This document shows positions 194 to 14,122 of a stretch of 14,122 bases of DNA, in pieces. Source of the DNA: a bacterium (GTDB lineage: Bacteria > UBP18 > UBA7526); assembly GCA_030619985.1 (NCBI GenBank), contig JAUXAI010000031.1, forward strand, positions 1 to 14,122, in the 5' to 3' direction. The notes under the pieces are model-generated. The model made no database searches and was not told the origin of the DNA. It saw nothing but the letters and a program-made list of their open reading frames with translations. Numbering within the stretch: the first letter of the stretch is position 1; each line of letters begins with the position of its first letter. The translations under genes were made by a program, and so were the position numbers.

Positions 194-212
194 ATCTTTC
201 ACCTCCAGACTA

Positions 213-241: not shown

Positions 242-624
242 CTACTCTTTTTTAAAATTTCCCTAACCTTGCGTTTTAACTCCAAGGGGTCAAAAGGTTT
301 GACAATATAAGCATCCGCTCCAGCAGATAGACCTCTTTCCATCTGCTTCTTATGAGCGCTGGCAGAAATAAGAATAGTTGTTATTGTCTTTGTCTGCACA
401 TCGCTCTTTAATTTTTTTAATACTTCCAGTCCATCTATCCCGGGTAAGATAATATCCAGAAGAATTAAGTTCGGCTTTTTTCTCTCTACTTTTTCCAGGC
501 ACTCCTCGCCACTATAGGCAGTGGCTATATCAAAATCCTTTGTTCCTAAAGCAGCCACCATAAGTTTGACAACATCCTCTTCATCATCCACAATCATAAT
601 CTTTTTTTTATTCACTTTTGCCAT
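238..624 (-). CDS. Single-domain response regulator (CheY-like receiver)
   Basis: This is a stand-alone receiver domain that would accept phosphate from a histidine kinase, very likely the one encoded immediately upstream. With the ATG start at 624 (MAKVNKKKIMIVDD) it has 128 residues. The key residues then fall exactly where they do in CheY: acidic pair D13/D14, phosphoacceptor D57 (LILLDIILPG), S87 in ILISA, and K109 in IVKPF. A longer reading starting at TTG 645 is possible but adds an unneeded basic tail. The start overlaps the 3' end of the kinase gene by 17 bp, implying translational coupling. There is no DNA-binding or enzymatic output domain, so it probably works by protein-protein contact or as a phosphorelay intermediate. 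The target is unknown. Confidence 0.93.
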   Translation of the reverse strand: MAKVNKKKIMIVDDEEDVVKLMVAALGTKDFDIATAYSGEECLEKVERKKPNLILLDIILPGIDGLEVLKKLKSDVQTKTITTILISASAHKKQMERGLSAGADAYIVKPFDPLELKRKVREILKKSS

Positions 625-2524
625 TCTTTTCTTTGGGTAGCGCAAAATAGAAGGCGCTTCCTTTACCCCGTTGACTCTCCGCCCAGATTCTCCCTTTGTG
701 GAGCTCTACCAATCCCTTAGCAATGGCCAATCCTAAACCCGTCCCCGTTTTCTTTCTCTTCCCCAATTGCTGGAATTTTTCAAAGATGGTAGATAGGTCT
801 TTTTGGGCTATTCCTGGCCCGGTATCCTTCACCCAGAAGAGGGCTTCCTTTTTCTTCCCTTGAAACCCCAGAACTATTTTTCCTTGAGGAGGAGTAAACT
901 TCAGGGCATTACCTACTAGATTAGTCAAAACCTGTTTTATTCTATCACTATCTGCCCTGAGGAGAGGAAATTCTTCAGGCAGGTCTGTTTCTAAACTAAT
1001 CTTTCGTGCCCTGGCCTCTATCTGGTAACTCTTTACAATTTCTTGAACTAAACCCGGAATATTCAAAGTCTGTAAATTAAGTTCTATCCTGCCGGCATCT
1101 AAACGCGAAATATCCAGAAGGTCATCAATCAATCGAGTAAGACGATCCGCATTCTTCTTAACCGTAATAAGAAATTCCCTTTGCTTTTGGTTTATTTTTC
1201 CGGCTATGCCCATCAAAATCAAATCCGTATAGCCCTTGATAGAGGTCATGGGGCTTCTTAACTCGTGAGAAACATTGGAGACAAAATCAGATTTCATCTT
1301 GTCCAGTGCTTTCAACTCTTCAATGGCTCGACGTAAGTCTTCCTCTGCCTTCTTGCGCTCGGTGATCTTCCCCAACCGCTCGGCGATGGTATTGATCAGA
1401 CTTCTCTCCTCCTTCAAGAAGGGTCCTTCACCGATTTCTGGTTTTTCCTCGAGGTAATAGACCTCTAAAGCGCCGATTCGATTGTCATACACAACGATGT
1501 CGCTGGCCTGCTTCCAGGCGGTTTCCCTGAAGTTTGCTGTCCTGTACTCTTGGGCCTCAAGGGTAACCCGTGCACAGGTGATTTCTGGATACTGCCAGGC
1601 AGGGGGAATGAGTTCCACTGTCCCCTGAATTATCTCTTCTAGGGAAATTTCTGGCTTTTCGACAAGTTGAGCAATTTCATAGAGGCAATTCAACTCCTTG
1701 ACCCGCTCGCCGAGATCACGGGTGTGCTTCTGTAGCGCCTCCTCCATCTTCTTGCGCGCAGTGATCTCACGAATTACGGCTGCTATACCCATAATGTTAC
1801 CTTCTACATCCACAACGCGCTGCTTAACAATATGATAGCATCTATCCCCAGCGAATTCTTCTTTCTCAATAGGATCCTTGGATTTTAATGTCTTCTCGTC
1901 ACTTCTCCTGCACCCTTCAGCAACTTCTTTTGGCATAAAATCGAAGTCTGTCTTACCAATAATGTCTTTTACCTTTATATTGAAAACTTTTTCGTGTGCT
2001 TTATTAGCAATTAAATATCTAAAATCCTTATCCTTAAGAAAGACAAGGTCTTTTGAGGAATTGATGAGGGCCTCGATCTTCTTTTGATAACTCTTAACTT
2101 CCTCCTCCGTCTGCTTGCGCTTGGTGATGTCTATGAGACACCCTCTCAAGCCCACTGGTTTGTTTTCATGAATGATGGGACTGGAATGTATGAGGGCGGG
2201 AAATGTGCTGCCGTCTTTCTTTAGTGCTGTATATTCAGTACCGCCCAACTCTTCTCCACTCATCACTCTCCGGATATTCTTCTTAGCCCTGTCTCGATCA
2301 TCAGGAATTAACGTTTGTAAGACGTTTATGCCTTTATCAAAATCGTCTTGAGTATAACCAAAAATTTCAAATGCTGTGCGGTTGGCGAATGTTAAATTAC
2401 CCCTTTCATCAGTTTCAAAAACAGTCTGCGGTAATGAATCCGCTAACTCCTTGTATCTCTCCTCGCTCTTCCGCAGTGACTCCACGGCCTTCTTATGTTT
2501 TGCCGATTTCTGCCTTCTTTTCAT
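608..2524 (-). CDS. Soluble PAS-PAS-(GAF-like) histidine kinase
   Basis: This 638-residue sensor histidine kinase has no membrane segment, so it is cytoplasmic. The order is: short coiled N-terminus; PAS domain with PAC (about 22-138); second PAS (about 145-258); a helix-linked domain of about 120 residues (266-390) that looks GAF-like but which I cannot name firmly; then HisKA with the phosphoacceptor H420 in SHELRSPMTSIKGY. The HATPase domain follows, with N box N535/N539, G1 DTGPG (567-571) and G2 GTGLGL (594-599). All catalytic motifs are intact. Domain joints carry similar linkers (ITKRKQTEEE, ITARKKMEEA, ITERKKAEED). The receiver gene overlaps its 3' end, so the two form a two-component pair. 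The middle domain is visibly more GC-rich than the second PAS domain, consistent with domain shuffling. The input signal is unknown. Confidence 0.93.
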   Translation of the reverse strand: MKRRQKSAKHKKAVESLRKSEERYKELADSLPQTVFETDERGNLTFANRTAFEIFGYTQDDFDKGINVLQTLIPDDRDRAKKNIRRVMSGEELGGTEYTALKKDGSTFPALIHSSPIIHENKPVGLRGCLIDITKRKQTEEEVKSYQKKIEALINSSKDLVFLKDKDFRYLIANKAHEKVFNIKVKDIIGKTDFDFMPKEVAEGCRRSDEKTLKSKDPIEKEEFAGDRCYHIVKQRVVDVEGNIMGIAAVIREITARKKMEEALQKHTRDLGERVKELNCLYEIAQLVEKPEISLEEIIQGTVELIPPAWQYPEITCARVTLEAQEYRTANFRETAWKQASDIVVYDNRIGALEVYYLEEKPEIGEGPFLKEERSLINTIAERLGKITERKKAEEDLRRAIEELKALDKMKSDFVSNVSHELRSPMTSIKGYTDLILMGIAGKINQKQREFLITVKKNADRLTRLIDDLLDISRLDAGRIELNLQTLNIPGLVQEIVKSYQIEARARKISLETDLPEEFPLLRADSDRIKQVLTNLVGNALKFTPPQGKIVLGFQGKKKEALFWVKDTGPGIAQKDLSTIFEKFQQLGKRKKTGTGLGLAIAKGLVELHKGRIWAESQRGKGSAFYFALPKEKNGKSE

Positions 2525-2554
2525 AATAAACTATTTCCTTCACAAATTAACATC

Positions 2555-2584
2555 AATATATCATAGATTTGTACTCGTTGTTAA
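2555..2584 (-). promoter_or_regulatory. Putative promoter of kinase-receiver operon
   Basis: On the minus strand there is TTAACA (2579-2584), an 18-nt spacer, then TATATT (2555-2560). A TG pair precedes the -10 box as TGA. It lies 30 nt upstream of the kinase ATG in an otherwise featureless AT-rich gap (2525-2650). I see no convincing terminator for the hydrolase in that gap. Confidence 0.45.
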
Positions 2585-2650
2585 CTAAAATGCCGTTCTT
2601 CTTTATTATTAATCTATCAAATGAGTTTTGCATCTCTAACGGGGTTCATC

Positions 2651-3514
2651 TCATCTCAGATTCTTCTTGAAGAATTCCAGAACCCGTCTCTCATATTCCA
2701 TAGTTGCTAAGGCCTGGGCTTCACCGTGGTCTGCACCAGGAACTATCCAGAGCTCGCTTTTGGGAGCGGCCTCATGCAATAGATAAGCATTCTTCACCGG
2801 GATCTGGCTATCCCTCTCCCCATGAATAAGAAGGATAGGTGATTTAACCTCCTTTATTATATCCACTGGAGACACAGAGGAGGTATCAAATTTTAAGACC
2901 ATTCTGGAAAGCAATCTGACAGTGAAAACAAAGGGATATCTCAGGAAGTGGTAATGCCTGAAGAGAGAATGAATCATAAGGTCTAAAGTAGCATAGGAAG
3001 AGTCAGAGACAATGGCCTTAATATCTGGACTATGGGTCATAATGATAACCGCTCCCCCTAAAGAGAAGCCCAAGGCCCCTATGCTTTCTATTCCCCTCGA
3101 CCTCAAATAATCTATGGCAGCGAGCAAGTCTTTCTTCTCGTGGTAGCCGACCGTGGTGTATCTCCCTTCACTCTCCCCCATTGCCCGAAAATCAAAGAGG
3201 AAGAGGTTGTACTTCTTATGTAAGAAGAGGCTGGAGGGAAGGATATTCCCCTTGTCAAAGGGATAGCCGTGGCAGACGATGATGGTAGACCCCTTTCCCT
3301 CTTTGGGAATAAACCAGCCCTTGAGGGTAAGCCCGTCTTCAGTTTTAAAACTCACCTTTTCGTATTTTAGGCCAAAATGCGAAGGATTAACACCACTTAT
3401 GAACCTCCTGGGGCAGACCGAGATATAGAAGGCATAAGAGGACATCCCACCCACCATGATTATGAAAAGGATTAGTACAGATAGAATATTCTTCGGGTTA
3501 AATAAGTAGGCCAT
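2651..3514 (-). CDS. Membrane-anchored alpha/beta hydrolase (serine hydrolase)
   Basis: From ATG 3514 (MAYLFNPKNI) the protein has 287 residues. Residues about 9-31 form one hydrophobic anchor, followed by an alpha/beta-hydrolase fold. The motifs are in order: oxyanion-type HGYP (82-85); nucleophile elbow GFSLGG (149-154, S151); acid D235 in HGERDSQIPV; and H263 in GADHGEA. This is the layout of the YqkD/BEM46-type family of membrane-tethered hydrolases acting on unknown esters or peptides. An open frame continues upstream to 3676, but it would overlap the preceding kinase gene and span a terminator. The M at 3514 has an AGGAGA Shine-Dalgarno (spacing of about 11) and its own promoter, so I take it as the start. 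The substrate cannot be predicted. Confidence 0.9.
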   Translation of the reverse strand: MAYLFNPKNILSVLILFIIMVGGMSSYAFYISVCPRRFISGVNPSHFGLKYEKVSFKTEDGLTLKGWFIPKEGKGSTIIVCHGYPFDKGNILPSSLFLHKKYNLFLFDFRAMGESEGRYTTVGYHEKKDLLAAIDYLRSRGIESIGALGFSLGGAVIIMTHSPDIKAIVSDSSYATLDLMIHSLFRHYHFLRYPFVFTVRLLSRMVLKFDTSSVSPVDIIKEVKSPILLIHGERDSQIPVKNAYLLHEAAPKSELWIVPGADHGEAQALATMEYERRVLEFFKKNLR

Positions 3515-3539
3515 TTTTAGTTGTGTCTCCTTTCTTAAA

Positions 3540-3568
3540 ATCTTACCATGCTTCTCACTAAAAAACAA
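3540..3568 (-). promoter_or_regulatory. Extended -10 promoter of the hydrolase gene
   Basis: On the minus strand there is TTGTTT (3563-3568), a 17-nt spacer ending in TGG, then TAAGAT (3540-3545). The TGG directly before the -10 box makes an extended -10 element, the same arrangement as at 5017-5045 and 7007-7035. The -35 box is weak and overlaps the T-tract of the upstream terminator. Confidence 0.45.
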
Positions 3569-3595
3569 CAAAAAAGCAGGGCGCTTCGGCCCTGC
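3560..3595 (-). terminator. Rho-independent terminator of the uridine-kinase-like gene
   Basis: On the minus strand there is a 7-bp GC stem (GCAGGGC/GCCCTGC, 3576-3595) with a 6-nt loop, followed by a T-rich run (3560-3575). It begins about 20 nt after the stop codon at 3616, ending that gene before the hydrolase. Confidence 0.85.
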
Positions 3596-3615
3596 CTGAA
3601 AATCGGTCTTGAGAT

Positions 3616-4989
3616 TTAATATCTGTAGCTGCTTCCTCCGATGAATTCCCTCAAGAGGGAGTTGGAAGGAACGCACCTATCATTCGCTTCATCCAATTGA
3701 TTCAAAAGGTTATAGACTCTTTTGGCTCGGATGTAGGCATCTACCTTTTTAGGGTCCTTCTCATACTTCTTCACCATGGAAAGAAAATACTTAAAGAGAT
3801 ACTTCTTGTAGATAGGAAACTCATAGGGAAGGGAGCCGTTGAAGACGTAATCCACCTTGTGGGTGAAGGGAACGATATGTCTCTTCTCGCTCCTCCTCAC
3901 ATAGTGCCAGTGGCCCACGGTTCTCTCTGGATCGTAGGAACGATGCCAGGAATCCCTTACCATTCGCCTCAGCATCCTTAAGTCCGCCCAGCGCACGAAC
4001 TCCCCCTTCTCATCCCTCAGTTGACACAAGGCTTCGATGTAGAACTTAAACTTCATCTTGGGAGGAATTTTAGAGGTCATCTCAGGATATAGGCCATGGA
4101 GGGAATCGATCAATAGAATCTGATCCTTCTCAAGTTTCAATCTCTTTCTCTCCCGTATCCGCTTCCCGGTCTTGAAGTTATATCTGGGCATCTCTATCGT
4201 CTTTCCTTCCAATAACTGAGAGAGATGCTCATTAATCAGGGGGAGGTCTAAAGCCTGAGGGCTTTCAAAATCATAATCCCCATATTCATCTTTGGGATGC
4301 TCCTCCAAGTTTTTGAAGTAATCGTCTAGGCTTAAAGAATAAAAGTTCACTCCCTTCTCATTCAATATTTCACCTATCTTCAGGGTAGTGGTAGTTTTCC
4401 CTGATGAAGAGGGGCCGGCGACAATAACCAACTTTACTCCTCGATTGATTCTGGTAATGATTCTCTCCACCGCTTTCCTCAACGCTAAATGATAGGCCTC
4501 CTCTGCCTCCTTCACCAGATCGGGGAAGGTGCCCTCTCTGATATGCTTATTGAGGTTCTCTATGGTGTCGCACTTATGGTCTACGTTCCAGGTGAAGATA
4601 TGCCACAGGACTTTATAGGGAACGTTATCTTCCATAATAACTCTTTCTATTTTGCCTTCTCTAAGCCGGGTATGTTCTGCCCGGTAAAGGATATAATGCT
4701 TGGCTGTCTGGTAACAGCCTTTCTCTACTAAGACCTTCTCAATCAAGTCCTGGATCTCTTCTACTGAGGGAATGGCCCCTGTAGGATAGGTCTGGTTGAT
4801 GAGACTTACCGCCTGATCGGCAAGATTCTCTGCCAGAGCGCGATCCCTTCCCCCTACCTCTACCGCTGCCCGATAGATGGAATTGATAATCTTTTCCCTA
4901 TTAAAGGCTACTATTCGACCATTGCGCTTGATTACCTTATTAATTTTATAATGTTCTGGTGGCTGGAAGAGTTTCTCCTGCTTTACCAT
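3616..4989 (-). CDS. ATP-cone / uridine kinase-like P-loop fusion
   Basis: This 457-residue cytoplasmic kinase has two parts. Residues about 16-112 form an ATP-cone, the nucleotide-sensing module of NrdR and class I/III ribonucleotide reductases (start KVIKRNGRIVAFNREKI, end HYILYRAEHTRLR). Residues about 185-400 form a uridine kinase/phosphoribulokinase-type P-loop domain. It has Walker A GPSSSGKT (192-199), LDDYF (221-225, supplying the usual catalytic Asp), YDFESPQALD (239-248) and PRYNFKTG. The C-terminus ends in LREFIGGSSYRY. I expect an ATP-dependent kinase for a nucleoside-like or small hydroxyl substrate whose activity responds to ATP/dATP binding; the substrate is inferred, not shown. 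The start at ATG 4989 has GGAG 7 nt upstream. Its own promoter and terminator make it a single-gene unit. Confidence 0.88.
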   Translation of the reverse strand: MVKQEKLFQPPEHYKINKVIKRNGRIVAFNREKIINSIYRAAVEVGGRDRALAENLADQAVSLINQTYPTGAIPSVEEIQDLIEKVLVEKGCYQTAKHYILYRAEHTRLREGKIERVIMEDNVPYKVLWHIFTWNVDHKCDTIENLNKHIREGTFPDLVKEAEEAYHLALRKAVERIITRINRGVKLVIVAGPSSSGKTTTTLKIGEILNEKGVNFYSLSLDDYFKNLEEHPKDEYGDYDFESPQALDLPLINEHLSQLLEGKTIEMPRYNFKTGKRIRERKRLKLEKDQILLIDSLHGLYPEMTSKIPPKMKFKFYIEALCQLRDEKGEFVRWADLRMLRRMVRDSWHRSYDPERTVGHWHYVRRSEKRHIVPFTHKVDYVFNGSLPYEFPIYKKYLFKYFLSMVKKYEKDPKKVDAYIRAKRVYNLLNQLDEANDRCVPSNSLLREFIGGSSYRY

Positions 4990-5016
4990 CTTTATGCTCC
5001 ATCTTCTTTTTTGAAT

Positions 5017-5045
5017 ATTTTACCATACCCTTTTTATAAAAGCAA
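5017..5045 (-). promoter_or_regulatory. Extended -10 promoter of the uridine-kinase-like gene
   Basis: On the minus strand there is TTGCTT (5040-5045), a 17-nt spacer ending in TGG, then TAAAAT (5017-5022). It lies 28 nt upstream of ATG 4989 in the 64-nt gap after the phosphodiesterase gene, so the kinase is transcribed independently. Confidence 0.55.
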
Positions 5046-5053
5046 CGAAATAA

Positions 5054-5539
5054 CTATCGCAAGGAAAAGACCTTTGCTTTCATGGTCTTTAAGTCTATGA
5101 TGCCCACAGTACACTTCCCAGTAAGCCAACCTCCACATTCTCCCGGATTGAGTACTAATGGAGGGCCGGGACGATGGTCTACTTTATGGGTATGACCGTA
5201 GATAATAATATCATATTCTTTACTGGCGATGAGGGCTTCCAGGAAACGAGGCTGGTGCATGAGAGCGACTCTCTTCCCCTCTATCTTCATCTCCCAGGTA
5301 TCTGGATGAATTTCTCCTATCTCCTGAAATTTATGGCGCAGATAGAGCTTATCTCCATCGTTATTACCAAAGACCCCGATTAACTTGGCCTTCAATTTCT
5401 TAAACTCTTTAGCAGTGATGGGAGAGATGAAATCCCCGGCATGCAAGACCAACCCCACCTTCTCCCGGTTGAATAATTCCACTGCCTTGGCAATCATGGG
5501 CATATTCTCATGACTATCAGCCATAACCCCTATCTTCAC
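5054..5539 (-). CDS. YfcE/MJ0936-type metallophosphodiesterase
   Basis: This 161-residue calcineurin-like phosphoesterase carries the full two-metal set: DSH (D8, H10), GD (D36), GNND (58-61), H95 and GHTH (115-118). The size and motif order match the small YfcE/MJ0936 phosphodiesterases, cytosolic enzymes that hydrolyse phosphodiester model substrates and, in some members, cyclic nucleotides. The physiological substrate is unknown. The start is a GTG at 5539 that overlaps the TGA of the methyltransferase gene by 4 bp (GTGA), with GGAGGT 4 nt upstream. The two genes are therefore translationally coupled. It ends the lipM-methyltransferase-phosphodiesterase unit. I see no clear terminator after it. 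Confidence 0.92.
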   Translation of the reverse strand: MKIGVMADSHENMPMIAKAVELFNREKVGLVLHAGDFISPITAKEFKKLKAKLIGVFGNNDGDKLYLRHKFQEIGEIHPDTWEMKIEGKRVALMHQPRFLEALIASKEYDIIIYGHTHKVDHRPGPPLVLNPGECGGWLTGKCTVGIIDLKTMKAKVFSLR

Positions 5540-6186
5540 CCCGCACCTCCTTTATGAAACACAGAATTTTTCACTTGAACTATTTCAATAGTTTCTTTCT
5601 TAATTCGTTCCCTATCCAGTATCTCGATCCCTGCTTCTTTCAGGAGAAAACTTAGGCCTCCCAAACGATAAAATTCCCGAAAACGAGAAAAATGGCCCCA
5701 GCCCGCCACTATTTCTTTAAACCTACAGGTAATGCCCGCTAATCTATGAGGTTGAGGAACGGCATAATCAACAATGATTAGCCTCTTTGCTACTCTCTTC
5801 ATCTCAAGCAAAATCTTCCGTCTCTCATCTGGGGTCATCTCGTGCAGTCCAAAAGAGATAATGGCAATATCGAACGCTTTATCAGAAAACTTCTCTAACC
5901 TTGTGGCATCTCCATGAATGAATTGTAAATTCTCTATTTTTTCTTGTCTCTGTCTTAGTTTTGCCCGTTCAACCATCTTCAGAGATAATTCTATCCCGAT
6001 TACCTCACATCCCTTGGTGGCCAATTTAAAACATAGGGCTCCCGTTCCACAGGCAACATCCAAAACCCTGCTTCCCGATGGAACAATTTCACTTATCCTA
6101 TCCCTGACTTTAGCAAAGTAAGGATCGATGACTCGCTCATAGATCCTCCCATCATAATAGTGAACCTTATTTAGAACTCTTCCCAT
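5536..6186 (-). CDS. Class I SAM-dependent methyltransferase
   Basis: This 216-residue cytosolic methyltransferase has the Rossmann-type SAM site: motif I VLDVACGTGA (41-50), acidic E66 at the end of beta-2 (VIGIELS), GDAT (92-95) and post-motif IISFGLHEM (109-117). The overall pattern resembles UbiE/MenG-like and other small-molecule methyltransferases, but the N- and C-termini are not diagnostic and no quinone genes are nearby. I therefore leave the substrate open. It begins 10 nt after the stop of the LipM-like gene and its stop overlaps the phosphodiesterase start, so it is the middle gene of a three-gene unit. Confidence 0.88.
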   Translation of the reverse strand: MGRVLNKVHYYDGRIYERVIDPYFAKVRDRISEIVPSGSRVLDVACGTGALCFKLATKGCEVIGIELSLKMVERAKLRQRQEKIENLQFIHGDATRLEKFSDKAFDIAIISFGLHEMTPDERRKILLEMKRVAKRLIIVDYAVPQPHRLAGITCRFKEIVAGWGHFSRFREFYRLGGLSFLLKEAGIEILDRERIKKETIEIVQVKNSVFHKGGAG

Positions 6187-6196
6187 GTAAAAACCA

Positions 6197-6979
6197 TTAG
6201 CGGAGATAATTCCATTCTCTTGTGCTGAACTTTGCAGCCGCTATCTCTTGAGCAAGAATCTTTTCTTTTCTGGTTAATTCATCAGGGATTAATCTGACAT
6301 TAAAGTTTTCCTCAAAGCCTTTTTTGAGTGCGAGGGCAAGGTCTTCAAATTCTATTCTCTTTCCCAGTTCACCCCGCACCTTTTTGGTATTCAATGAGGT
6401 AACTTTTTCCTGCACTTGAGAGATTTTGCCGCCTCCCTTAAAAAGAGAACACATCTTCTCTATATCAAAATCAATAAGGATACTCCCATGTTGCAAAAGT
6501 TTTCCATTCTTTCTTACTTGGGCAGAGCCAACAATCTTTTTTCCATTGACTACAATCTCATAATAAAAGGGATCATTGAAGCAAAAGGAAGATTTCTGAG
6601 TTCTTTTCACTTTCTCACTCATCTCTGCTTCCAGCCCTAAATTCTCTAAGGCGGTAAGGATTGCTCGGCTTATTACTTTATAGGATTCGGTGATACTCTT
6701 GGGCATCAAGTCTTGAGAGATGACAAAAGAATAGGTCAATTCCCTATCATGTAAGACTGCCTTCCCCCCAGTAATGCGTCTCACATAGCCTATTCCTCGT
6801 CTCTTACATTCTTCTAAATCTATCTCGTCCTCTAACCTCTGAAAGTAACCGATGGAGATAGCAGGTGGCCTCCACCTATAGAAGCGCAGAACAGGGACCT
6901 CGCTCTGGAGCAATACTTCATCTATGGCCATATTGGTATAGGCATTATGGTAACCATCCTGAATCAACCGCCAAGGCAT
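6197..6979 (-). CDS. lipM: Octanoyltransferase LipM-like (lipoate ligase A fold)
   Basis: This 260-residue protein of the biotin/lipoate A/B ligase fold has RRITGGKAVLHDRELTYS (67-84), C133 in SSFCFNDP, K148 in GKKIVGSAQ and LQHGSI (162-167). A Cys at this place directly before the Asn-Asp-Pro segment is the feature that separates LipM octanoyltransferases (thioester intermediate, octanoyl-ACP donor) from ATP-dependent lipoate ligases. I therefore favour LipM, with LplA-type ligase as the alternative. The lipA gene in the neighbouring unit would complete lipoyl synthesis on the octanoylated protein. The start at ATG 6979 has AAGGAG 5-6 nt upstream and a promoter just beyond. It is first in a unit with a methyltransferase and a phosphodiesterase. 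Confidence 0.85.
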   Translation of the reverse strand: MPWRLIQDGYHNAYTNMAIDEVLLQSEVPVLRFYRWRPPAISIGYFQRLEDEIDLEECKRRGIGYVRRITGGKAVLHDRELTYSFVISQDLMPKSITESYKVISRAILTALENLGLEAEMSEKVKRTQKSSFCFNDPFYYEIVVNGKKIVGSAQVRKNGKLLQHGSILIDFDIEKMCSLFKGGGKISQVQEKVTSLNTKKVRGELGKRIEFEDLALALKKGFEENFNVRLIPDELTRKEKILAQEIAAAKFSTREWNYLR

Positions 6980-7006
6980 ACTAACTCCTTATAAAACTCA
7001 ATTTAT

Positions 7007-7035
7007 AGTTTACCATAATTTTGGAAAGAAGGCAA
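7007..7035 (-). promoter_or_regulatory. Extended -10 promoter of the lipM unit
   Basis: On the minus strand there is TTGCCT (7030-7035), a 17-nt spacer ending in TGG, then TAAACT (7007-7012). It is 28 nt from ATG 6979, the same distance as between the 5017-5045 promoter and its gene. Confidence 0.5.
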
Positions 7036-7037
7036 AC

Positions 7038-7064
7038 CCCGCTAGATAGTAAACATCTAACGGG
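7038..7064. repeat. Inverted repeat next to the lipM promoter
   Basis: CCCG (7038-7041) pairs with CGGG (7061-7064) and, past one mismatch, TAGAT (7043-7047) pairs with ATCTA (7055-7059), leaving a 7-nt loop. It lies just upstream of the lipM -35 box and just past the terminator of the upstream gene. It could be an operator, a small interspersed palindrome or part of a double terminator. The right arm resembles the TCTAACGGG found near 2635. Confidence 0.4.
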
Positions 7065-7066
7065 AC

Positions 7067-7098
7067 AAAGAAAAAAGGCAGGACGATTGAGTCCTGCC
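7067..7098 (-). terminator. Rho-independent terminator (possibly bidirectional)
   Basis: A perfect 8-bp stem GGCAGGAC/GTCCTGCC (7077-7084 and 7091-7098) with a 6-nt loop is followed on the minus strand by a T6CT3 run (7067-7076). It sits 28 nt past the stop of the metallopeptidase gene and closes the long upstream operon. The plus strand also has a T6 run on its far side, so it could work in both directions. Confidence 0.8.
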
Positions 7099-7125
7099 AA
7101 TTGTTTTTTAAACCTATCTTTATTT

Positions 7126-8814
7126 TTACTCGGTCTTTATCTCTTTAATTCGTTGGCTGGCCTTCTCTGCCCAAGAGGTCTGGGGATATCTTTTAATCAC
7201 TTTTTCATATTCTTTCAGGGCCGGCTCAGATAGATTGTTTATCCTATAATTCTCTGCCAGGGTATAAAGAGCCTTTGCCTTATCCTCAGAGGTTAGTGAC
7301 TTTTTGGGTTTGGGCTTTTTCTTAGGAATATAATAAAATTCATAATCCTCAAAAATAGTTGCCCTTTTATTATCTTTCTCAAAATTAATTCTATAGCCTA
7401 TTTCTTGACCCTCTTCTAAATTAGCTGGTATTTTAATTTCAAAAGAATAAATTCTTCCAGCTAATTTCACTGAATGTTCAATATCTCTTGGTGAGATTAT
7501 TTTTTCATATGGATAATTTGAATTATTATCCCACATCTCTAAACACAATTTATCATCCAATTTTGGTCCTCCAAGAGTGCATTGGTACTTTCTAGTTTTA
7601 TTAGAACAATCCATCGCATGAGCTAAATTTATTCTATTTGTTGGAATATCAAAAAGAATTTCTAAATTATTTCTACCGTGCCACTAACCGTCTCCATCTA
7701 TATCAAGCCACAAATGAAGATTTGTAGGTTTATTTACAACTCCTGCAATATAAATATTATTTTTATTCCAAGTAGAATATATTTTTGATGAAATATGCAA
7801 CTCATCATATGTTCTTTTATCAGTTAAAAAAGTCCATCCTGCTTCTATATATCCATCAATAGAGGGAGAAAACTTTTCAACCTCTGAACAGATATCGTAA
7901 AGACTTCCCGTTAATCTTCCTTGATAAATACCGACCGTATATTTCTTTTTATTCCATCCTTTGCCTAACCGTTTATCATCAATGGGAAGGTCAGGCTTAT
8001 TATCTGGAATACCATTTTCATCATAATCGATAAGGTGGTTTATAGTTCCCCATTTCCTACTAAGACCTAACCAATTATTAAATTTTTTTAACCCTTCCGC
8101 CTGATAACTGAACTGTTCTCCGCCTTTAAAAGCATATGCTAATGGTTGGTCTCCATGAAACATTTCAGGATAACCACTCCGTTTATACATTTCATCTAAA
8201 GCGTGTTGAAATTCATGTACGAATATCCAAGTTATTTTATAATTCACAGAGGGATCATCGATAGGATAAACAACGCCTGTTGGCACCGGAAATACAGAAT
8301 GGGAAAAACCAACATCGAAGTTTCCGTGTACTCCCCAAGACCATGTGCCACCAACATCCGTAGATATGTGGAATATTGCTCCAAAATCTTTTATTTGATA
8401 GCCGGCATCATTTACAGCTTTTTCAATAGTTTGATCCCAATTTGAGTTCTTTCCTATTATTTCATTTATTGGGACATAAACTAAACTTAGATTTAATTTT
8501 AACCCGCTATTTCTCCAGTAAAATTTTCTTGCCAATTCTATTCCTTTCTTAAGTTTTGTCAACTCTACTTCATTTATTCCGTAATATACAACTGCCACGT
8601 TAATATTCATGTAATCTATTTTCTTTGGTGGCAAACTCTCACAAGCTTCATATTTTTCAGGTGATATGTCGGCATTTTTGTATAAGTTAGCACCAGTCTC
8701 AAAATATTCTTTATCAATTTCAGGTCTTTCTATAATCTCTGGCTTTTTCCGTGCCATTACCCAGACTAAAGCAACGACTATTACTGCTACTAACAATAAA
8801 TATATCTTTTTTAT
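7126..8814 (-). pseudogene. Membrane-anchored HExxH metallopeptidase-like gene with amber stop and no standard start
   Basis: One reading frame of about 562 codons is broken once, by TAG at 7684-7686. Upstream: Lys-rich start and membrane anchor (KKIYLLVAVIVVALVWV); a zinc-protease motif HEFQH in ITWIFVHEFQHALDE; a Ca-site-like DYDENGIPDNKPDLPIDD; then the start of a beta-rich domain ending LWLDIDGDG. The frame resumes after the TAG with WHGRNNLEI, completing what looks like a CBM9/DOMON-like domain. A Lys/Pro linker and a TPR-like helical tail follow. No canonical start fits: AAGGAG has ATA (8812-8814) 9 nt downstream and TTG (8796) 27 nt downstream. The gene is more AT-rich than its neighbours, suggesting transfer. 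It is probably an extracytoplasmic protease-like protein. Pseudogene, UAG readthrough and assembly error are all possible. If the stop is real, the two halves are 7687-8814 and 7126-7614. Confidence 0.65.
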
Positions 8815-8859
8815 TCTACTTTTCTCCTTTTAAATTTCATTATGTTTCTTTTACAAGTA

Positions 8860-8964
8860 TCACTTCTTCTTTTTCTTCTTCTTTACACACTTCCATTTGT
8901 CACAACAAGCTTTATACAACTTCTGGTATAAATCCGAACAATCGTTAATCGGCTCCCCCACCAT
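8860..8964 (-). CDS. Small Cys/Lys-rich ORF (34 codons)
   Basis: This ORF begins with ATG directly after the TAA stop of lipA (TAAATG), so it could be translated by coupling, with GGTGG just upstream as a weak Shine-Dalgarno. It begins MVGEPINDCSDLYQKL and has four Cys (9, 20, 21, 26), aromatic residues Y13, Y17 and W24, and a C-terminal run of seven Lys. A short amphipathic Cys-rich peptide with a basic tail could bind metal, nucleic acid or a membrane, but I recognise no family. The ORF is short enough to occur by chance, and the Lys run comes from a purine-rich AAG tract, so this is a candidate only. Confidence 0.4.
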   Translation of the reverse strand: MVGEPINDCSDLYQKLYKACCDKWKCVKKKKKKK

Positions 8965-9915
8965 TTACCACCGCGTAGGTGTCAAGTGGTTCAATACATA
9001 TTCTCCAGCATGGTAGGAACTGCGGACCAGGGGGCCGGACTCAATATGTAAGAAGCCCAACTCTTCTCCTATCTCTTTGAACTCTTTAAACTCTTCTGGA
9101 GAGTAGTATTTAGTGATAGGAAGATGATTCAGAGAAGGCTGGAGATACTGGCCAATAGTAAAGATATCACATTCTACTTCCCTTAAATCCTTCATAACTT
9201 CTGTAATTTCTTCTTTTCTCTCTCCCATCCCAACCATTATTCCCGATTTGGTAAAAATATTTGGGTTTACCCCGCTCCTGCGTGCAGGGGCGGGGTTTAT
9301 TTCCTTCGCCACTTTTAAGAGATTTAATGACCTTTTATAATTTCCTTGCGATCTCACGATAGGAAATAACCTTTCTACCGTCTCTAAGTTATGGGCCAAA
9401 ACATAGGGTTTGGCGTCAATCACCTTCTTTAACGAATCTGGGTTCCCTTTAAAATCGGGAATGAGGACTTCTATTTTTGTTCCTGAAGATAGATCTTTTA
9501 CTGCCTGAATTGTCTGAGCAAAGATGCTTGCTCCACCATCTAATAGATCGTCCCTGGTAACAGAAGTAATGACCACATAATTGAGGTTTAACTTCTTAAC
9601 TATTCTGGCTACTCTTTCTGGTTCACCCCGTCCCGTCTGTGACGGGCGGGGCTCATTTAAGTCCACTTCTAAAGGAGTTCCCTTTTTGACATTGCAGTAG
9701 GTGCAGTTCCTGGTGCAGACATCCCCTAAGATCATGAAGGTAGCGGTTCCCTTGCTAAAGCATTCTGCGATATTGGGGCACTTTGCTTCCTCACAGATAG
9801 TATGAAGTCTGGAAGATGTTAAAAGAGACTTTATTCTAAAAAATTCTTTCCTGGAAGGAATCTTCACCTTGAGCCAATCAGGATGCCTTCTTTTATTTAT
9901 TCCCTGATTACCCAT
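8965..9915 (-). CDS. lipA: Lipoyl synthase LipA with two short in-frame insertions
   Basis: This radical-SAM enzyme inserts two sulfurs into the protein-bound octanoyl chain to make lipoyl groups. It has 316 residues with both iron-sulfur motifs: the auxiliary cluster CX4CX5C (C41, C46, C52) and the radical-SAM CX3CX2C (C67, C71, C74). Further hallmarks are VTRDDLLDGGA (119-129), TKSGIMVGMGE (222-232), GQYLQPS and RSSYHAGE near the C-terminus. Residues 90-99 and 207-216 are not expected in LipA. Each is encoded by a GC-rich 30-nt palindrome, and the sequence reads normally without it (NEPERVA and KEINPNIFTKSG). Both lie away from the catalytic motifs, so activity is plausibly kept. The start at ATG 9915 overlaps the DUF123-MOSC gene by 19 bp. 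With LipM at 6197-6979 it completes lipoate synthesis. Confidence 0.95.
   Translation of the reverse strand: MGNQGINKRRHPDWLKVKIPSRKEFFRIKSLLTSSRLHTICEEAKCPNIAECFSKGTATFMILGDVCTRNCTYCNVKKGTPLEVDLNEPRPSQTGRGEPERVARIVKKLNLNYVVITSVTRDDLLDGGASIFAQTIQAVKDLSSGTKIEVLIPDFKGNPDSLKKVIDAKPYVLAHNLETVERLFPIVRSQGNYKRSLNLLKVAKEINPAPARRSGVNPNIFTKSGIMVGMGERKEEITEVMKDLREVECDIFTIGQYLQPSLNHLPITKYYSPEEFKEFKEIGEELGFLHIESGPLVRSSYHAGEYVLNHLTPTRW
9263..9299. repeat. 30-nt palindromic in-frame insert in lipA (copy 2)
   Basis: The hairpin at 9270-9295 has an 11-bp stem (CCCCGCTCCTG against CAGGGGCGGGG, with one T-G wobble) and loop CGTG. It is flanked by a perfect 7-nt direct repeat GGGTTTA at 9263-9269 and 9293-9299, exactly 30 nt apart. 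Removing one repeat plus the palindrome restores KEINPNIFTKSG in LipA. Confidence 0.75.
9620..9655. repeat. 30-nt palindromic in-frame insert in lipA (copy 1)
   Basis: The hairpin at 9626-9651 pairs CCCCG with CGGGG and CCCGTC with GACGGG around a single bulged T and a TGT loop. It is flanked by near-identical 6-nt repeats GGTTCA (9620-9625) and GGCTCA (9650-9655), exactly 30 nt apart. Removing it restores NEPERVARIV in LipA. It shares the CCCCG...CGGGG ends with the copy at 9270-9295. Confidence 0.7.
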
Positions 9916-10721
9916 ATGTTATCCCCAACTTTTATCTGGCCACTTTTTCTGACTTTGCAGAAAACCCCATACTTAGGAAGTAAAGAATAGCCTCGATAGG
10001 AATAGGCATGGGGCCCTTTTCCCTTGCCAATCTGACTCACTTCTAATATTGTTTTTCCTACTTTCAATCTTGTCTTAAAGGGTAGAGATAATATATCTAT
10101 TCCTTGAGTAGTAATGTTTTCAGCAAAGTTCCCCGGTTGGAAAGGAAAAGGAAGTTTCTTTCTCTTTACATCTTCTATGGCTAAGAGGCTCACCTCTTTC
10201 TCTGTTCCAAAATGGGCATCCCCCACCAAACCAAATCCTTTCTTTAGATAACCTTTTTTCACATTATTCTTCGGTTTTTCCTTTCTTTTACTCCTACAGA
10301 CTCCCATTACTTTCCCTATAACATACTTTTCAAAGTTCAGTTCTTTTAACAAGGTTTTAACTTCACTTTCCTTATTGGTATAAAAAAGATGACTTGGGCA
10401 TCGGCAGTCAGAAGAACCAAAACTTCTTATTAAGCGGGATGAAGGAAGTAAAGAAATCTTTTGGGCCAATTTGCACTCCTTTAGGCCGCTACTGGCCCAC
10501 GCTTCTTTAATCTCTACCCCTTTCTGGGAGAGAAGATAATCTATATGCCAGAATAATTTTTTCTTCTTCCTATAATGCCTTGCTACTCTTGCCGCAAAGT
10601 TTGTCTTCGCCCTTCCGATATAGAGGTAAGTTCCTTTCTTAAAAGCAATTCTCCCCAGGCTTCCTATTACAATCCTCTTTTTCTGGGAAACCCGAATGAA
10701 AAGTATATAAACATCGTTCAC
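9897..10721 (-). CDS. DUF123 (GIY-YIG-like) - MOSC domain fusion protein
   Basis: This 274-residue two-domain protein starts with DUF123 (about 1-130), a GIY-YIG-nuclease-like family frequent in archaea. Its hallmarks here are GTYLYIGRA (30-38), R45/H49, FWHIDYLL (57-64) and CRCPSHLFY (106-114). Residues about 135-272 form a MOSC domain with GLVGDAHFG (164-172), PGNFAENITTQGID (196-209), LEVSQIGKG (226-234), PKYGVFCKV (249-257) and IKVGD. MOSC domains bind molybdenum cofactor or handle sulfur through a Cys that normally follows the IGK motif; here that place reads IGKGKGPHAYSY with no Cys. The GTG start at 10721 overlaps the stop of the phosphatase gene by 4 bp (GTGA), and its end overlaps lipA, so it is tightly coupled in the operon. 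Its role is unknown. Confidence 0.85.
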   Translation of the reverse strand: MNDVYILFIRVSQKKRIVIGSLGRIAFKKGTYLYIGRAKTNFAARVARHYRKKKKLFWHIDYLLSQKGVEIKEAWASSGLKECKLAQKISLLPSSRLIRSFGSSDCRCPSHLFYTNKESEVKTLLKELNFEKYVIGKVMGVCRSKRKEKPKNNVKKGYLKKGFGLVGDAHFGTEKEVSLLAIEDVKRKKLPFPFQPGNFAENITTQGIDILSLPFKTRLKVGKTILEVSQIGKGKGPHAYSYRGYSLLPKYGVFCKVRKSGQIKVGDNIWVIRE

Positions 10722-11500
10722 TTTATTATCTTAAGGACCTTGGAATGTATTCTTCTGTTAGATGCAATATATCCTTTGCTATTTAGGGTCCATCTCTTAC
10801 CCTTTAAATCGGTTGCTTTGCCTTCTGCCTCTTCTACTAAAAGAAGGCCAGCGGCAAAATCCCAAGGTTTATCATTATATTCTATCTCTAAGTCTGCCTT
10901 GCCTTCTGCTACATAGGTAAGGCCGCGTACTGTAGAGCCAAACATCCTGATATTAAAGACCTCATCCACTAACTTATCCAGATACTTTAGCATTGGCCCT
11001 TTATTAAGTCGGATGGTGCTATCGTAGATCATGGTAGTATGGTCTAAATCTTTTCGAGAAACACTGATTTTTCTCTGGTTAAGGAAGGCCCCTTTACCTT
11101 TTTCAGCAAAATATAATTCATCACTCATAGGAAGATAGATGACCCCTAAAATAACCTTATCTCTATATGCTAAGGCGATGGAGGTTCCAAAGTTCTCCAT
11201 ACCGCGGATATAGTTATGGGTTCCATCCAAGGGATCGATAATCCACCTGAAATCAGAATCGAAGGTTTGATATTTAGTTTCTTCTGACAGGATATTATCC
11301 TCTGGATAATCTTTCTTAATTAAGTTTACAATCTTTTCTTCTGCCTTGAGATCGATATCGGTAACCAGGCTCCTCTCCCCCTTGGTTTTAATCCGAATGG
11401 TTCTGCCAAAATAATGTTTTAATATCTTGCCTGCTTCTTTAGCGGCTTTAATTGCTAATTCTTTTCTTTTACTAACCTCTGAGTCTCTTTTCTTTACCAC
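10718..11500 (-). CDS. Inositol monophosphatase-family phosphatase
   Basis: This 260-residue Mg-dependent sugar-phosphate phosphatase of the IMPase/FBPase-IV/CysQ superfamily has metal ligands in LSEE (71-74), [12 protein letters not shown] (86-97; D89, D92) and WDFAAG (213-218; D214). The length and motifs are those of cytosolic IMPase or SuhB-like enzymes. Substrates in the family include inositol-1-phosphate, fructose-1,6-bisphosphate and PAP, and the sequence alone does not decide between them. The start is GTG at 11500, with GGGGA about 6 nt upstream, and overlaps the DUF6485 gene by 7 bp. The 3' end overlaps the DUF123-MOSC gene (GTGA). Confidence 0.92.
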
Positions 11501-11706
11501 CAGCGTCCCCTTTCCTGATAGGTTTTGATGAACCTCTCAATGGAACGATCGAAGGTCTTTTCTACATCATTGGGAAAGAGACAGGCTGGTAGTTCACCTA
11601 TTCTCCAATGATACTGAATACATTCGCAACAAAGACCCTTTTTATCGCACGGTTCATAGGTACAATTGCATCTTGCCTTATTCTCCGTTATCTTACATTC
11701 TGCCAT
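11494..11706 (-). CDS. DUF6485-type Cys-rich small protein
   Basis: This is a 70-residue protein of the uncharacterised DUF6485 family. It begins [20 protein letters not shown] and carries eight Cys (4, 13, 15, 20, 26, 27, 29, 42), followed by ELPACLFP and DRSIERFI, the typical conserved tail. The spacing suggests a metal or iron-sulfur site; the function is unknown. I start it at ATG 11706, which has GGGAGG 9-10 nt upstream. The open frame runs further up to 11751, but that part is translation of the repeat-filled spacer and unlikely to be protein. The stop overlaps the phosphatase start. Confidence 0.82.
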
Positions 11707-11732
11707 ATCAATTAACCTCCCTTGCAACCGCT

Positions 11733-11821
11733 GAAACGCAGAATTAAACACAGAGACGCCGAGATTATAGGGGCACTGGATTTCCTCTGCGTTTCTATTT
11801 TACTTTCGGCGACTCTGCGTT
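11733..11821. repeat. ACGCAGAG-type repeat with interleaved inverted arms
   Basis: Arm A (GAAACGCAGA, 11733-11742) is the exact reverse complement of A' (11786-11795). Arm B (CAGAGACGCCGA, 11751-11762) matches B' (11806-11817) at 11 of 12 positions. The order is A-B-A'-B', so both stems cannot nest and would form a pseudoknot-like fold. CTCTGCGTT is also repeated directly at 11785 and 11813. The element fills the spacer and covers the last codons of the metallo-beta-lactamase-fold gene. A TATAAT on the minus strand (11764-11769) has no matching -35 box. Confidence 0.55.
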
Positions 11822-12601
11822 ACCTAATCTTGCTCCACAGCCCAGATCGAAGAAATTCTCCTTCCAAGTCTCTCTGAATAACTCTATCGGCTTTCCTCCT
11901 GTGCAGTGGGAAGGACCGACTTTTTCCACACCAATTGCTTTCAGATCTTTAATGATTCTTTTGACTTGGGGTTCGCTATAGGCTAAGAGGTGGAATCCTC
12001 CTAAGACAAGGTAAACCTTCTCCTTCTTCAATAACCTCTGGGCCCTTCTGACAATATTTACTACTCCCGGATGGGCACAGCCAGTAACAACCATCAATCC
12101 TTTTTTGGTATCAATGACTAAAGTCTGCTCTTTGATCCATCCGGCAAAGCCGGACAACTCTCCTGTAGTATAGACACTTTTGCAGATTTTTACTGGATTG
12201 TGGACAGAGACTACCTTGGCCCCCTTTCTCCCCACTTTTTCCTTAAAATCCTGGGGCAAGGAAGCCGGCAAATAAACAGTGACCTCATGATTCTTATCTA
12301 AGAGACTTAATAATCCACCCCGATGGTCCCAGTGGATATGGGAGATGACTACCACATCTATTTTTTGAGGATCGACTTTCAACTTTTCCATATTGGATAA
12401 TAGTATTTCACCATCACCCCCGGTATCGAAGAGGATGGTCTTTTCCAAACCCTCAATGAGACAGGAGAAACCCCAAGCAGTAGTGAGTTCCTCATTATGG
12501 GGAACATTGTTATAAAGGATGGTAAAGGATATATCCTGGGCAAAAGCCGCTACGGGAACCAAAACAGAAAATAAAACAATAACAAGAATTCTTTTATACA
12601 T
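11795..12601 (-). CDS. Exported metallo-beta-lactamase-fold hydrolase
   Basis: This 268-residue protein has an N-terminal signal peptide ([21 protein letters not shown], likely cut after A21) and a metallo-beta-lactamase domain. It shows [12 protein letters not shown] (57-68), [10 protein letters not shown] (87-96; H88, H90, D92, H93), GCAHPG (174-179; H177), GGFHLL (201-206) and SHCTGG (231-236). The layout fits the family annotated as dihydropterin-ribofuranosyl-aminobenzene-phosphate synthase-like, close to MJ0296-type proteins, which are usually cytosolic; export is unusual. The substrate is unknown. It starts 2 nt after the DUF169 stop. Its last residues (GNAESPKVK) are encoded by a repeat, so the natural C-terminus may once have been different. 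Confidence 0.87.
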
Positions 12602-12603
12602 AG

Positions 12604-13230
12604 TTACTTTCCTTCCAATAAAATTTTGGCTACCCGGGAATCGGTAGGAATGCTTAAGAAAAGTTCCTCTTTATTTAAATTTACTCCCGGCCTTGAACCA
12701 TAGCAGCCTAAAGAGATATTGGCCTGGCCAGTTATTAAGGGATAGGCAGTGCACTCCCCGCACATGGCACCAATTCCACTCATAGAGGCCTTAATTCTTT
12801 TCCCCGTAGTGCGAGAAAATTTCTGCACCAGAATCATAATCTCTTGAGGATTGTCTATGATAATGATGACATCTGCTTTTAGATTTTTGGTGGGATAAGG
12901 AAAGTAGATAATACATTTTTCGCTCTCTTTTAGACAATGGCCTGAATTCAAATAGCTTAAGGCTACCTTCTCATCAATAGCATCATCCCAGCTAACTAAA
13001 GTCTGAGAGAGTTCTTTTACCAAAGTTCGAGAGAGATCTCTTAAATTCTTTCTTTCAAGTCCTAAATAAAATCTGGCCAGAGGGCAGGAGATATCTTCGC
13101 CTCGGGCATAAAGAATAGTCCCTCCTCTGGCCTGGCCAACAAAATGACAGTGTTTATCCGGAGATTTCACTCTCTCAATTCCTACAGGTTCTTTTTTAAC
13201 AATGGCTATTCCGATTCTGTTACTTCCCAC
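12604..13230 (-). CDS. DUF169 family protein
   Basis: This 208-residue protein of the uncharacterised DUF169 family has Cys residues at 28, 49, 99, 106, 157, 160 and 176, and the family-like segments YARGEDISCPLARFYLG (41-57), ADVIIIIDNPQEIMILVQ (119-136), SGIGAMCGECTAYPL (151-165) and SLGCYGSRPG (173-182). The conserved Cys pattern hints at a metal or iron-sulfur ligand. The start is GTG 13230, inside the end of the NifX-like gene (11-bp overlap), with AAGGA a few nt upstream. It is followed 2 nt later by the exported metallo-beta-lactamase-fold gene. There is no signal peptide. The biochemical function is not established for the family. Confidence 0.8.
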   Translation of the reverse strand: MGSNRIGIAIVKKEPVGIERVKSPDKHCHFVGQARGGTILYARGEDISCPLARFYLGLERKNLRDLSRTLVKELSQTLVSWDDAIDEKVALSYLNSGHCLKESEKCIIYFPYPTKNLKADVIIIIDNPQEIMILVQKFSRTTGKRIKASMSGIGAMCGECTAYPLITGQANISLGCYGSRPGVNLNKEELFLSIPTDSRVAKILLEGK

Positions 13231-13534
13231 TATATCCTTTCACTGCTTCTGAGACAGTACCACTTATTCCGGTTACTACCTTGACTCCGGCGCTTTCTAA
13301 AGCTGCCTTAGCATTGGGGCCGCAGGCGCCGGTCAAAACCACCTCTGCTCCATGCTTGGCAATGAGAGAGGCGGTATGAGGGCCTACCCCGGATAGTTCC
13401 CCGATATAAGGGTTGGGCACCACATCGAATTTCATAGTATCAGAATCAACGATGAGGAAATACTGTGCCCGGCCAAACTTCTCACTCACCTGAGCGCTCA
13501 ACGAACCTCCGGTAGATGATATAGCAATCTTCAT
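13220..13534 (-). CDS. NifX/NifB-type (dinitrogenase cofactor-binding superfamily) small protein
   Basis: This 104-residue stand-alone member of the dinitrogenase iron-molybdenum cofactor-binding superfamily (PF02579 type) begins MKIAISSTGGSLSAQVSEKF. It has the typical FGRAQYFLIVD (20-30), GVGPHTASLIAKHGAEVVL (49-67) and TGACGPNA (68-75, C71) segments. In NifX/NafY/NifB such domains bind metal-sulfur cofactors. Stand-alone copies are widespread in anaerobes without nitrogenase, and no nif genes are in this window. The ATG at 13534 follows an excellent AAGGAGG (13543-13549). The frame is open up to 13594, but that part is the ACAGAT repeat read as protein. It leads the gene set NifX-like, DUF169, exported MBL-fold. 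Confidence 0.9.
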   Translation of the reverse strand: MKIAISSTGGSLSAQVSEKFGRAQYFLIVDSDTMKFDVVPNPYIGELSGVGPHTASLIAKHGAEVVLTGACGPNAKAALESAGVKVVTGISGTVSEAVKGYSGK

Positions 13535-13554
13535 TCTCTTTACCTCCTTACAAC

Positions 13555-13598
13555 ACAGATTCACACAGATAAAATACAGATTGCCACAGATCACAGAT
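13555..13598. repeat. Five ACAGAT repeats at about 10-bp spacing
   Basis: ACAGAT begins at 13555, 13565, 13576, 13586 and 13593 (spacings 10, 11, 10, 7), placing the first four on one face of the helix. The array lies directly upstream of the NifX-like Shine-Dalgarno. It may be an interspersed repeat remnant or a phased protein-binding site. Confidence 0.55.
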
Positions 13599-13608
13599 AC
13601 TTAATAGA

Positions 13609-13623
13609 TTGATAGCTTATCAA
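13609..13623. promoter_or_regulatory. 15-nt dyad (TTGATA-GCT-TATCAA)
   Basis: A perfect 6-bp inverted repeat with a 3-nt centre lies in the spacer between the YibE/F-type gene and the NifX-like gene, 75 nt upstream of the latter start. There is no T-tract, so it is not a terminator. An operator is possible but unproven. Confidence 0.3.
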
Positions 13624-13640
13624 CTCACTTTCCCACTTTC

Positions 13641-14122
13641 TCACCTGCTCTTTCGTGTTCTCAGTGGTTTGGATAGCCAGTACCCGCTGATGAGAGCCGT
13701 AGCAGGAATAACGAAGACAAATCCCAGGCTTCCTGCCAAGGCCCGGGTTACCTCTAAGGCAACAAATTCTGTATTGATGATTTGAATGAGGGGGAATTCT
13801 CCCGCGATATAGATCATGAGGGCCAATAGACCTCCCCCCAGATAGACCAGGATGAGACTATTGGCCATAGTGGCCATGATATCCCTTCCCACGTTCATTC
13901 CCCTCTTGATCAGTTCCTTCTGGCCGATCCCGGGATAGGCCCCCTTTATCTCAGACATACTGGAAGAGACAGTAATGGCTACATCCATGACCACACCTAC
14001 CGCACCGATAATGATGGCTGAGGTAAGGACACCTCCCATATCGGTAATAAGGTCTCCTCCATAATGGCGGGAGAAGTAACTTAAGGCCCTTATCCCTTCA
14101 GAGCTGAAGCCAGTAATCTTTA
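13641..14122 (-). CDS. YibE/F-type membrane protein, C-terminal part
   Basis: The frame is open to the right edge of the window, so only the C-terminal 159-160 residues are seen. Internal Met residues (for example at 14039) are not starts. The sequence has GGVLTSAIIIGAVGVVMDVA, IKRGMNVGRDIMATMANSLIL and several hydrophobic helices, matching the YibE/F-like family of multi-pass inner-membrane proteins of unconfirmed function. The final residues (KPLRTRKSR) are encoded in a segment CCACTGAGAACACGAAAGAG (13651-13668 region) that looks like an intergenic repeat type rather than conserved coding sequence. The NifX-like gene follows about 105 nt downstream. Confidence 0.82.
   Translation of the reverse strand, partial: KITGFSSEGIRALSYFSRHYGGDLITDMGGVLTSAIIIGAVGVVMDVAITVSSSMSEIKGAYPGIGQKELIKRGMNVGRDIMATMANSLILVYLGGGLLALMIYIAGEFPLIQIINTEFVALEVTRALAGSLGFVFVIPATALISGYWLSKPLRTRKSR

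Follow-up and report, generated by a model that had tools for sequence, protein, structure and literature searches.

We report that lipA, the lipoyl synthase gene of an uncultivated bacterium (GTDB lineage Bacteria; UBP18; UBA7526), carries two in-frame 30-nt insertions, each containing a 26-nt hairpin (elements A and B) that belongs to a dispersed family of repeats. The gene lies on contig JAUXAI010000031.1 of assembly GCA_030619985.1, and the whole stretch analysed, positions 1 to 14,122, is referred to here as the window. We interpret the lipA inserts as a non-autonomous element resembling miniature inverted-repeat transposable elements (MITEs), made up almost wholly of a pair of abutting terminal inverted repeats (23–26 nt) and inserting precisely with duplication of its target. 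To this reading, which is drawn from sequence comparison, we assign a probability of roughly 0.87. At that level, precise insertion is demonstrated in lipA, at the tsf start codon and, by alignment to PDB entries, in other genes.

An initial annotation of the window had described one GC hairpin at 9270–9295, bounded by the 7-nt direct repeat GGGTTTA, adding ten residues to LipA and keeping the frame through its length of 30 nt. The hairpin is present and stable: as single-stranded DNA, element A (CCCCGCTCCTGCGTGCAGGGGCGGGG) forms a stem capped by a 4-nt loop (z -3.7), and 0/200 shuffles were as stable. GGGTTTA does occur at 9263–9269 and 9293–9299, spaced by 30 nt. However, flank matching across 93 elements gives a true duplication of 4 nt (TTTA), and the GGG beyond it is a chance overlap, arising where the element terminus abuts a GGG that the flank already had. 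A second lipA hairpin, element B at 9626–9651, had been missed, as had longer sister elements of 48–230 nt with the same ends. At site A the coding strand reads GAA ATA AAC CCC...GTA AAC CCA AAT; removal of 30 nt leaves GAA ATA AAC CCA AAT. The empty site anticipated in relatives is found in the genus sibling G002 (GAA ATA AGC CCA GAT), while the family sibling G003 reads GAG ATG AGT TCG. At site B, AAT GAG and CCA GAA are separated by 30 nt here, and the empty G002 sequence is AGT GAG CCA GAA; the two duplication copies of element B differ by one base, GAG versus GAA, both encoding Glu. Each hairpin adds ten residues (in the contexts INPAPARRSGVN and EPRPSQTGRGEP). By alignment, neither insert is found in LipA of G002, G003 or about 40 more distant genomes, and solved lipoyl synthases are gapped at both positions. 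An AlphaFold2 model of the protein has a confident core (mean predicted local distance difference test score 86.3) and falls below 50 at residues 87–94 and 214–216, stretches which overlap the two inserts. This prediction fits inserts that are tolerated as surface loops.

The family is dispersed in all six genomes of the host's bacterial family, which comprise three genera and are incomplete (53–93%) metagenome-assembled genomes (MAGs). A search for further hairpins, also foreseen in the initial annotation, returned many copies with 4-nt flanking repeats and a coding-frame bias. Elements share the arms CCCCG[CT]NCC...GGN[GA]CGGGG, in which the 9-nt arms are fixed and the flanks vary; this arm pattern was itself the detection rule for the 93 catalogued elements, with enrichment judged against reversed controls. 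In this genome the pattern CCCCGCNCCTN{2,32}GGNGCGGGG has 17 forward and 17 reverse matches, the reversed control giving 0 in either direction, and TNNACCCCGCNCCT has 52 and 42 compared with 0 and 1 in its control; these counts exclude a chance origin. Outside the bacterial family, any match to the first pattern was seen in only 29/380 genomes. Patterns with fixed inner bases gave no matches. Matches in G292 and G321 were rejected as members of the repeat family: they read CCCCTAC...GTAGGGG and are, by motif, GTAG-type repetitive extragenic palindromes (REPs).

The catalogue holds 93 distinct elements called by their ends alone, with flanks unused in detection; its loci were picked by pattern and are a sample rather than a full census. 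The short class (40 elements, 23–29 nt) is mainly 25 and 26 nt long, and the long class (53 elements, 48–230 nt), mainly 48–53 and 96–130 nt, has the same ends and duplications. An identical 26-nt sequence recurs across genes, genomes and genera. Among 17 distinct 26-nt forms the outer arms are constant, and the inner part varies with compensatory changes: stem pairs 11–16 and 12–15 covary, pair 11–16 occurring as GC, CG, UA and AU, and 12 cells changed on both sides compared with 2.9 in shuffles. Either palindromy is maintained or varied forms are generated repeatedly. The 53-nt element of L003 carries the core TGCACGCAG, also found in element A of lipA, and it is plausible that the 26-nt form arose as an internal deletion of the ~53-nt form.

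Flanking sequences point to target duplication. Identical 4-nt flanks were found for 39/53 long elements, against a shuffled mean of 12.1 (maximum 20), and for 22/40 short elements, against 4.4 (maximum 12; 2000 shuffles in each case). Across the 93 elements, matching is 65–83% at positions 1–4 and 23–25% (long) or 28–45% (short) at positions 5–7, and this sharp drop past base 4 sets the duplication at 4 nt. The 4-mers of perfect duplications are TGAA, TAAA, TCAA, TTAA or their complements (mostly TTTA, TTCA, TTAA and TTGA), suggesting a target of roughly TTNA. Moreover, left and right 4-mers covary between copies (TTTA/TTTA, TTCA/TTCA, TTAA/TTAA), which disfavours a motif carried by the element itself.

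Empty sites are also seen at the starts of other genes. The tsf gene of G001 has an uninterrupted start, AAGGAAAGTGAAGATTAAT, with a single TGAA. In G000 this precise position is taken by a 103-nt element with a TGAA copy on each side; G002 has another element of ~50 nt there and G004 a nested pair, both likewise bounded by TGAA (L238–L242). Similarly, a 102-nt element at fmt is common to G000 and G002, and G005, which is without it, starts ATGGAAATAATC (L018, L161, L166). At four loci a ~52-nt element, flanked by its own duplication, sits within a second element that has a different duplication. At L164–L167 such a composite has been amplified as a unit in G002, G004 and G005.

Copies within genes are biased towards lengths that keep the frame, as had been proposed for the 30-nt lipA insert. 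The net insert is the element plus 4 nt, such that 26 nt gives 30, 23 gives 27 and 25 gives 29. In a tally made by hand on duplication-type elements, with shared sites counted once, 17 of the frame-keeping 26- and 23-nt copies lie inside open reading frames (ORFs) and another 5 do not. By contrast, no duplicated-type copy of 25 or 24 nt stands alone within a gene, and 11 such copies are placed outside genes or at their ends (Fisher p 2.3e-5). The priA ORF contains 26-nt and 25-nt copies in tandem, whose sum, from the sequence, is 60 nt. Host genes identified by Pfam include those for LipA, KdtA, PriA, TilS, methylmalonyl-CoA mutase, DciA and polysaccharide deacetylase. In PDB alignments the insert of the D-aminoacyl-tRNA deacylase (DTD) gene falls on a gap of exactly 10 residues, and a CobD/HisC-like gene is likewise gapped at its insert. 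These unrelated genes carry the hairpins in either orientation and in several reading frames.

Longer elements are often inserted into the TGAA of start codons. Where long-element ends are flanked by TGAA, an ORF of 60 codons or more begins at the GTG in 21/38 cases, compared with 1/38 in the usable control frame; the remaining frame begins with TGA and hence provides no control. This GTG forms where the final G of the element joins the first TG in TGAA, and AAGGTG or GGAGG lies in the element end just upstream. From their N-termini, the genes at these starts resemble tsf, fmt, radA, apt, ptsI, lpxD and ribosomal protein genes. The arrangement at these starts is observed directly, and the element end would thereby drive translation of the downstream gene. 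In the window, an element-type end (5535–5547) supplies GGAGGTG, the GTG with which ORF 5054–5539 starts and the stop codon of the preceding ORF; no partner end was found there.

We envisage that a trans-acting enzyme would recognise the CCCCG...CGGGG ends, cut TTNA targets with a 4-nt stagger and insert the element, after which gap repair would yield the duplication. Selection would then purge frameshifting copies, and survivors inside genes would encode 9–10-residue surface loops such as NPAPARRSGV or EPRPxxxGRG. Copies at start-codon TGAA sites would survive where the element end (GGAGG/AAGGTG...GGGG) and TGAA together rebuild a Shine-Dalgarno sequence and a GTG start. More tentatively, and at slightly less than even odds, the complete mobile unit may be two abutted ends of 9–13 nt (23–26 bp) which, with the 4-nt duplication, make ten codons and are nearly harmless in genes; longer forms with a Shine-Dalgarno sequence in their ends would rebuild a working start at TGAA, and the enzyme would lie outside the families tested.

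Alternatively, the repeats could be palindromes of the REP type, mobilised in single-stranded form by a Y1 transposase (RAYT/IS200-type), with the flanking tetranucleotides as recognition sites. Their imperfect GC palindromes match REPs of 20–40 nt, and REPs within genes have been described (PMC3733652). However, all catalogued copies end in CCCC/GGGG without GTAG or CGTC tags, no Y1_Tnp protein was detected in the six incomplete genomes by a search whose control was positive in 5/14 genomes, and the two flanks vary together from copy to copy. Elements of Y1 systems, by contrast, carry a single cleavage motif with them. We regard this explanation as very unlikely, and a similarly low probability attaches to a functional module (an RNA hairpin, attenuator or peptide tag) selected by the host and spread by gene conversion, whose in-frame placement would reflect its function. 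Such a module would agree with the compensatory stem changes, with sites common to genera (kdtA, L087/L106; a helix-turn-helix (HTH) gene, L099/L114) or to species (fmt), and with start-codon copies serving essential genes. It is at odds with the use of both orientations and several frames in unrelated genes, with the target duplications and with the lineage-specific presence in lipA. At start codons, function may be secondary.

The initial annotation had allowed for a mini-palindrome that was either mobile or derived from replication. Mobility is borne out by the further copies, covarying duplications and empty sites. Independent generation at each site by replication or repair (template switching or snap-back synthesis) would account for the palindromic form, varied inner sequences and short size, but we consider it the least probable explanation: the same 26-nt sequence occurs in different genes, genomes and genera, the 9-nt arms stay fixed while flanks vary, nested and composite copies have been amplified, ends and duplications are common to the 48–230-nt sisters, and near-identical copies are dispersed with target duplications. 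Three other candidates were rejected. Programmed bypassing is needless for a 30-nt in-frame insert and does not predict the length bias. As to a viral source, TTCACCCCGCACCTT is present in 25 viral contigs, which is by our own estimate not above chance for a 15-mer given the size of the collection; the 26-nt hairpin pattern was in none. Unpaired ends in G002 were considered as edges of a long autonomous transposon, and the 6-kb candidate on C26 resolved into a pair of distinct short elements on either side of ordinary genes.

Several observations weigh against the MITE-like interpretation. Neither PF13701 (IS1380/piggyBac-like), PF01609 (IS4/IS5-like) nor Y1_Tnp (PF01797) was found in the six genomes, these three families being the only ones searched, and no autonomous copy or matched long element pair was recovered. 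An autonomous copy may be missing from incomplete MAGs, in which transposases present in many copies are frequently lost during assembly. Of the short copies, 18/40 are without a perfect 4/4 duplication, element B among them, and the 26-nt copies L007 and L012 and the DTD-gene copy L010 (TGAA/TTCA) have no direct duplication. Moreover, a 24-nt palindrome without duplication lies in a valS-like ORF (L118); it was left out of the frame tally, and its inclusion weakens the test. Lastly, the same sites in kdtA, the HTH/nucleotidyltransferase gene and tsf are occupied by different elements depending on the genus, a pattern not expected from simple rare transposition.

At kdtA (L087/L106) and the HTH-nucleotidyltransferase gene (L099/L114), 26-nt hairpins stand at apparently the same gene position across genera. 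At kdtA one genus has the matched duplication TAAA/TAAA and the other TTAA/TTAA; the copies of G005 and G004 are of a CCGGGG variant. Such shared sites may be hotspots that were hit independently, or conversion may have replaced one element by another.

Among known systems, MITEs such as Coxiella QMITE1/2 and Chunjie (PMC10969869) similarly have terminal inverted repeats and short target duplications, and are dispersed, non-coding, size-graded and nested. Prokaryotic MITEs measure 50–500 bp, with truncated QMITE1 down to 39 bp (PMC10969869); the 48–230-bp sisters largely fall in this range, and the 26-bp lipA copies do not. Hairpins here are 23–26 bp at their smallest, almost only two abutted repeats, and occur in many copies and within genes; no related insertion sequence (IS) was found in the search of three transposase families. 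The behaviour is MITE-like, but the copies are under the usual size and no parent IS is known. The initial annotation had likened the lipA hairpin to Rickettsia palindromic elements, which are ~150 bp with one end CGTC (PMC3733652) and are described in PMC10969869. The likeness so far is one of behaviour, both being palindromes in frame in many unrelated protein genes. The repeats here differ in size (23–26 bp) and termini (CCCC/GGGG), and have clear 4-nt duplications, several frames and both orientations. GTAG/CGTC-tagged REPs are also imperfect GC palindromes of 20–40 bp that occur occasionally in genes (PMC3733652); unlike these, our repeats have a 4-nt target duplication and no GTAG/CGTC tag, and no RAYT was found in the six genomes. 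The small dispersed repeats of cyanobacteria, 21–27 nt long and mainly intergenic, are by description also very small mobile repeats near in size, and the enzyme that moves them is likewise unknown. They trace to Elhai (2008), cited in PMC3116915 and PMC4390886; according to the latter, SDR5 inserts precisely within HIP1 sites. Yeast mitochondrial GC clusters, whose mechanism is unresolved, have 2–3-nt repeats and lie in intergenic regions and introns (PMC4478555); they are near in size, but belong to an organelle and share no sequence with the present family.

Table 1. Features of the hairpin family in the window.
Feature	Position	Strand	Basis
lipA (lipoyl synthase) with two in-frame 30-nt insertions	8965..9915	-	ORF; Pfam LIAS_N and Radical_SAM; alignment to solved lipoyl synthases
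Left TTTA copy, 4-nt target duplication of element A	9266..9269	+	Sequence; length from family-wide flank matching
Element A, 26-nt hairpin CCCCGCTCCTGCGTGCAGGGGCGGGG; with one TTTA copy, 30 nt (10 codons)	9270..9295	+	
Right TTTA copy, 4-nt target duplication of element A	9296..9299	+	Sequence; family-wide flank matching
Left duplication copy of element B, TTCA (coding strand TGAA)	9622..9625	+	Sequence
Element B, 26-nt hairpin CCCCGTCCCGTCTGTGACGGGCGGGG in lipA; 10-aa insert not in relatives	9626..9651	+	
Right duplication copy of element B, CTCA (coding strand TGAG)	9652..9655	+	Empty G002 site is GAG CCA
Probable remnant of ~50-nt relative (TTCA + CCCCGCACC end) in lplA-like ORF; encodes KKVRGE	6368..6418	-	Pattern match
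Element-type end GGTGCGGGG followed by TGAA at gene start	5535..5547	-	Pattern match; local alignment

Elsewhere in the window (Table 1), the probable remnant in the lplA-like ORF gives a gapped local alignment to the intact 49–50-nt elements of L033 and L029, its left end being unrecognisable. A 75-nt element with CCCCGCACC ends occurs in L002, L019, L039 and L153 with unmatched flanks (TTCA / CAAG, on one strand); it recurs beside the conserved stretch CTCAC..CGTTCGGCAAT and possibly lies inside a larger repeat. At 7033–7069 the window has a different type of hairpin, CCCCGCTAGATAGTAAACATCTAACGGGA, between CAAA and CAAA. A relative at L108:24-52 (CCCCATTAGA...TCTAACGGGG) is flanked by CTTG/CTTG, and others are in L110, L129 and L242. 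This type may be a sister family with the same habit of 4-nt duplication and other ends and targets. G118, from another bacterial family, has 44-nt hairpins, CCCCGCCCCTCGT...ACGAGGGGCGGGG (L147, L169–L171), with near-matching 4-nt flanks (TAAA/TGAA, TTGA/TGAA, TTTA/TTTG), and these are possibly a distant branch of the same kind.

If our interpretation is true, these hairpins would be among the smallest bacterial transposable units with clear target duplications, raising the question of which enzyme is able to move a 26-bp element. They would provide natural examples of repeated ten-residue insertions in conserved enzymes, namely LipA (twice), PriA, TilS, DTD, KdtA and methylmalonyl-CoA mutase. 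Moreover, the longer sisters would represent mobile DNA that rebuilds an interrupted start codon and thereby takes over the initiation of translation in essential genes, namely tsf and, judging from N-termini, fmt, ptsI and ribosomal protein genes.
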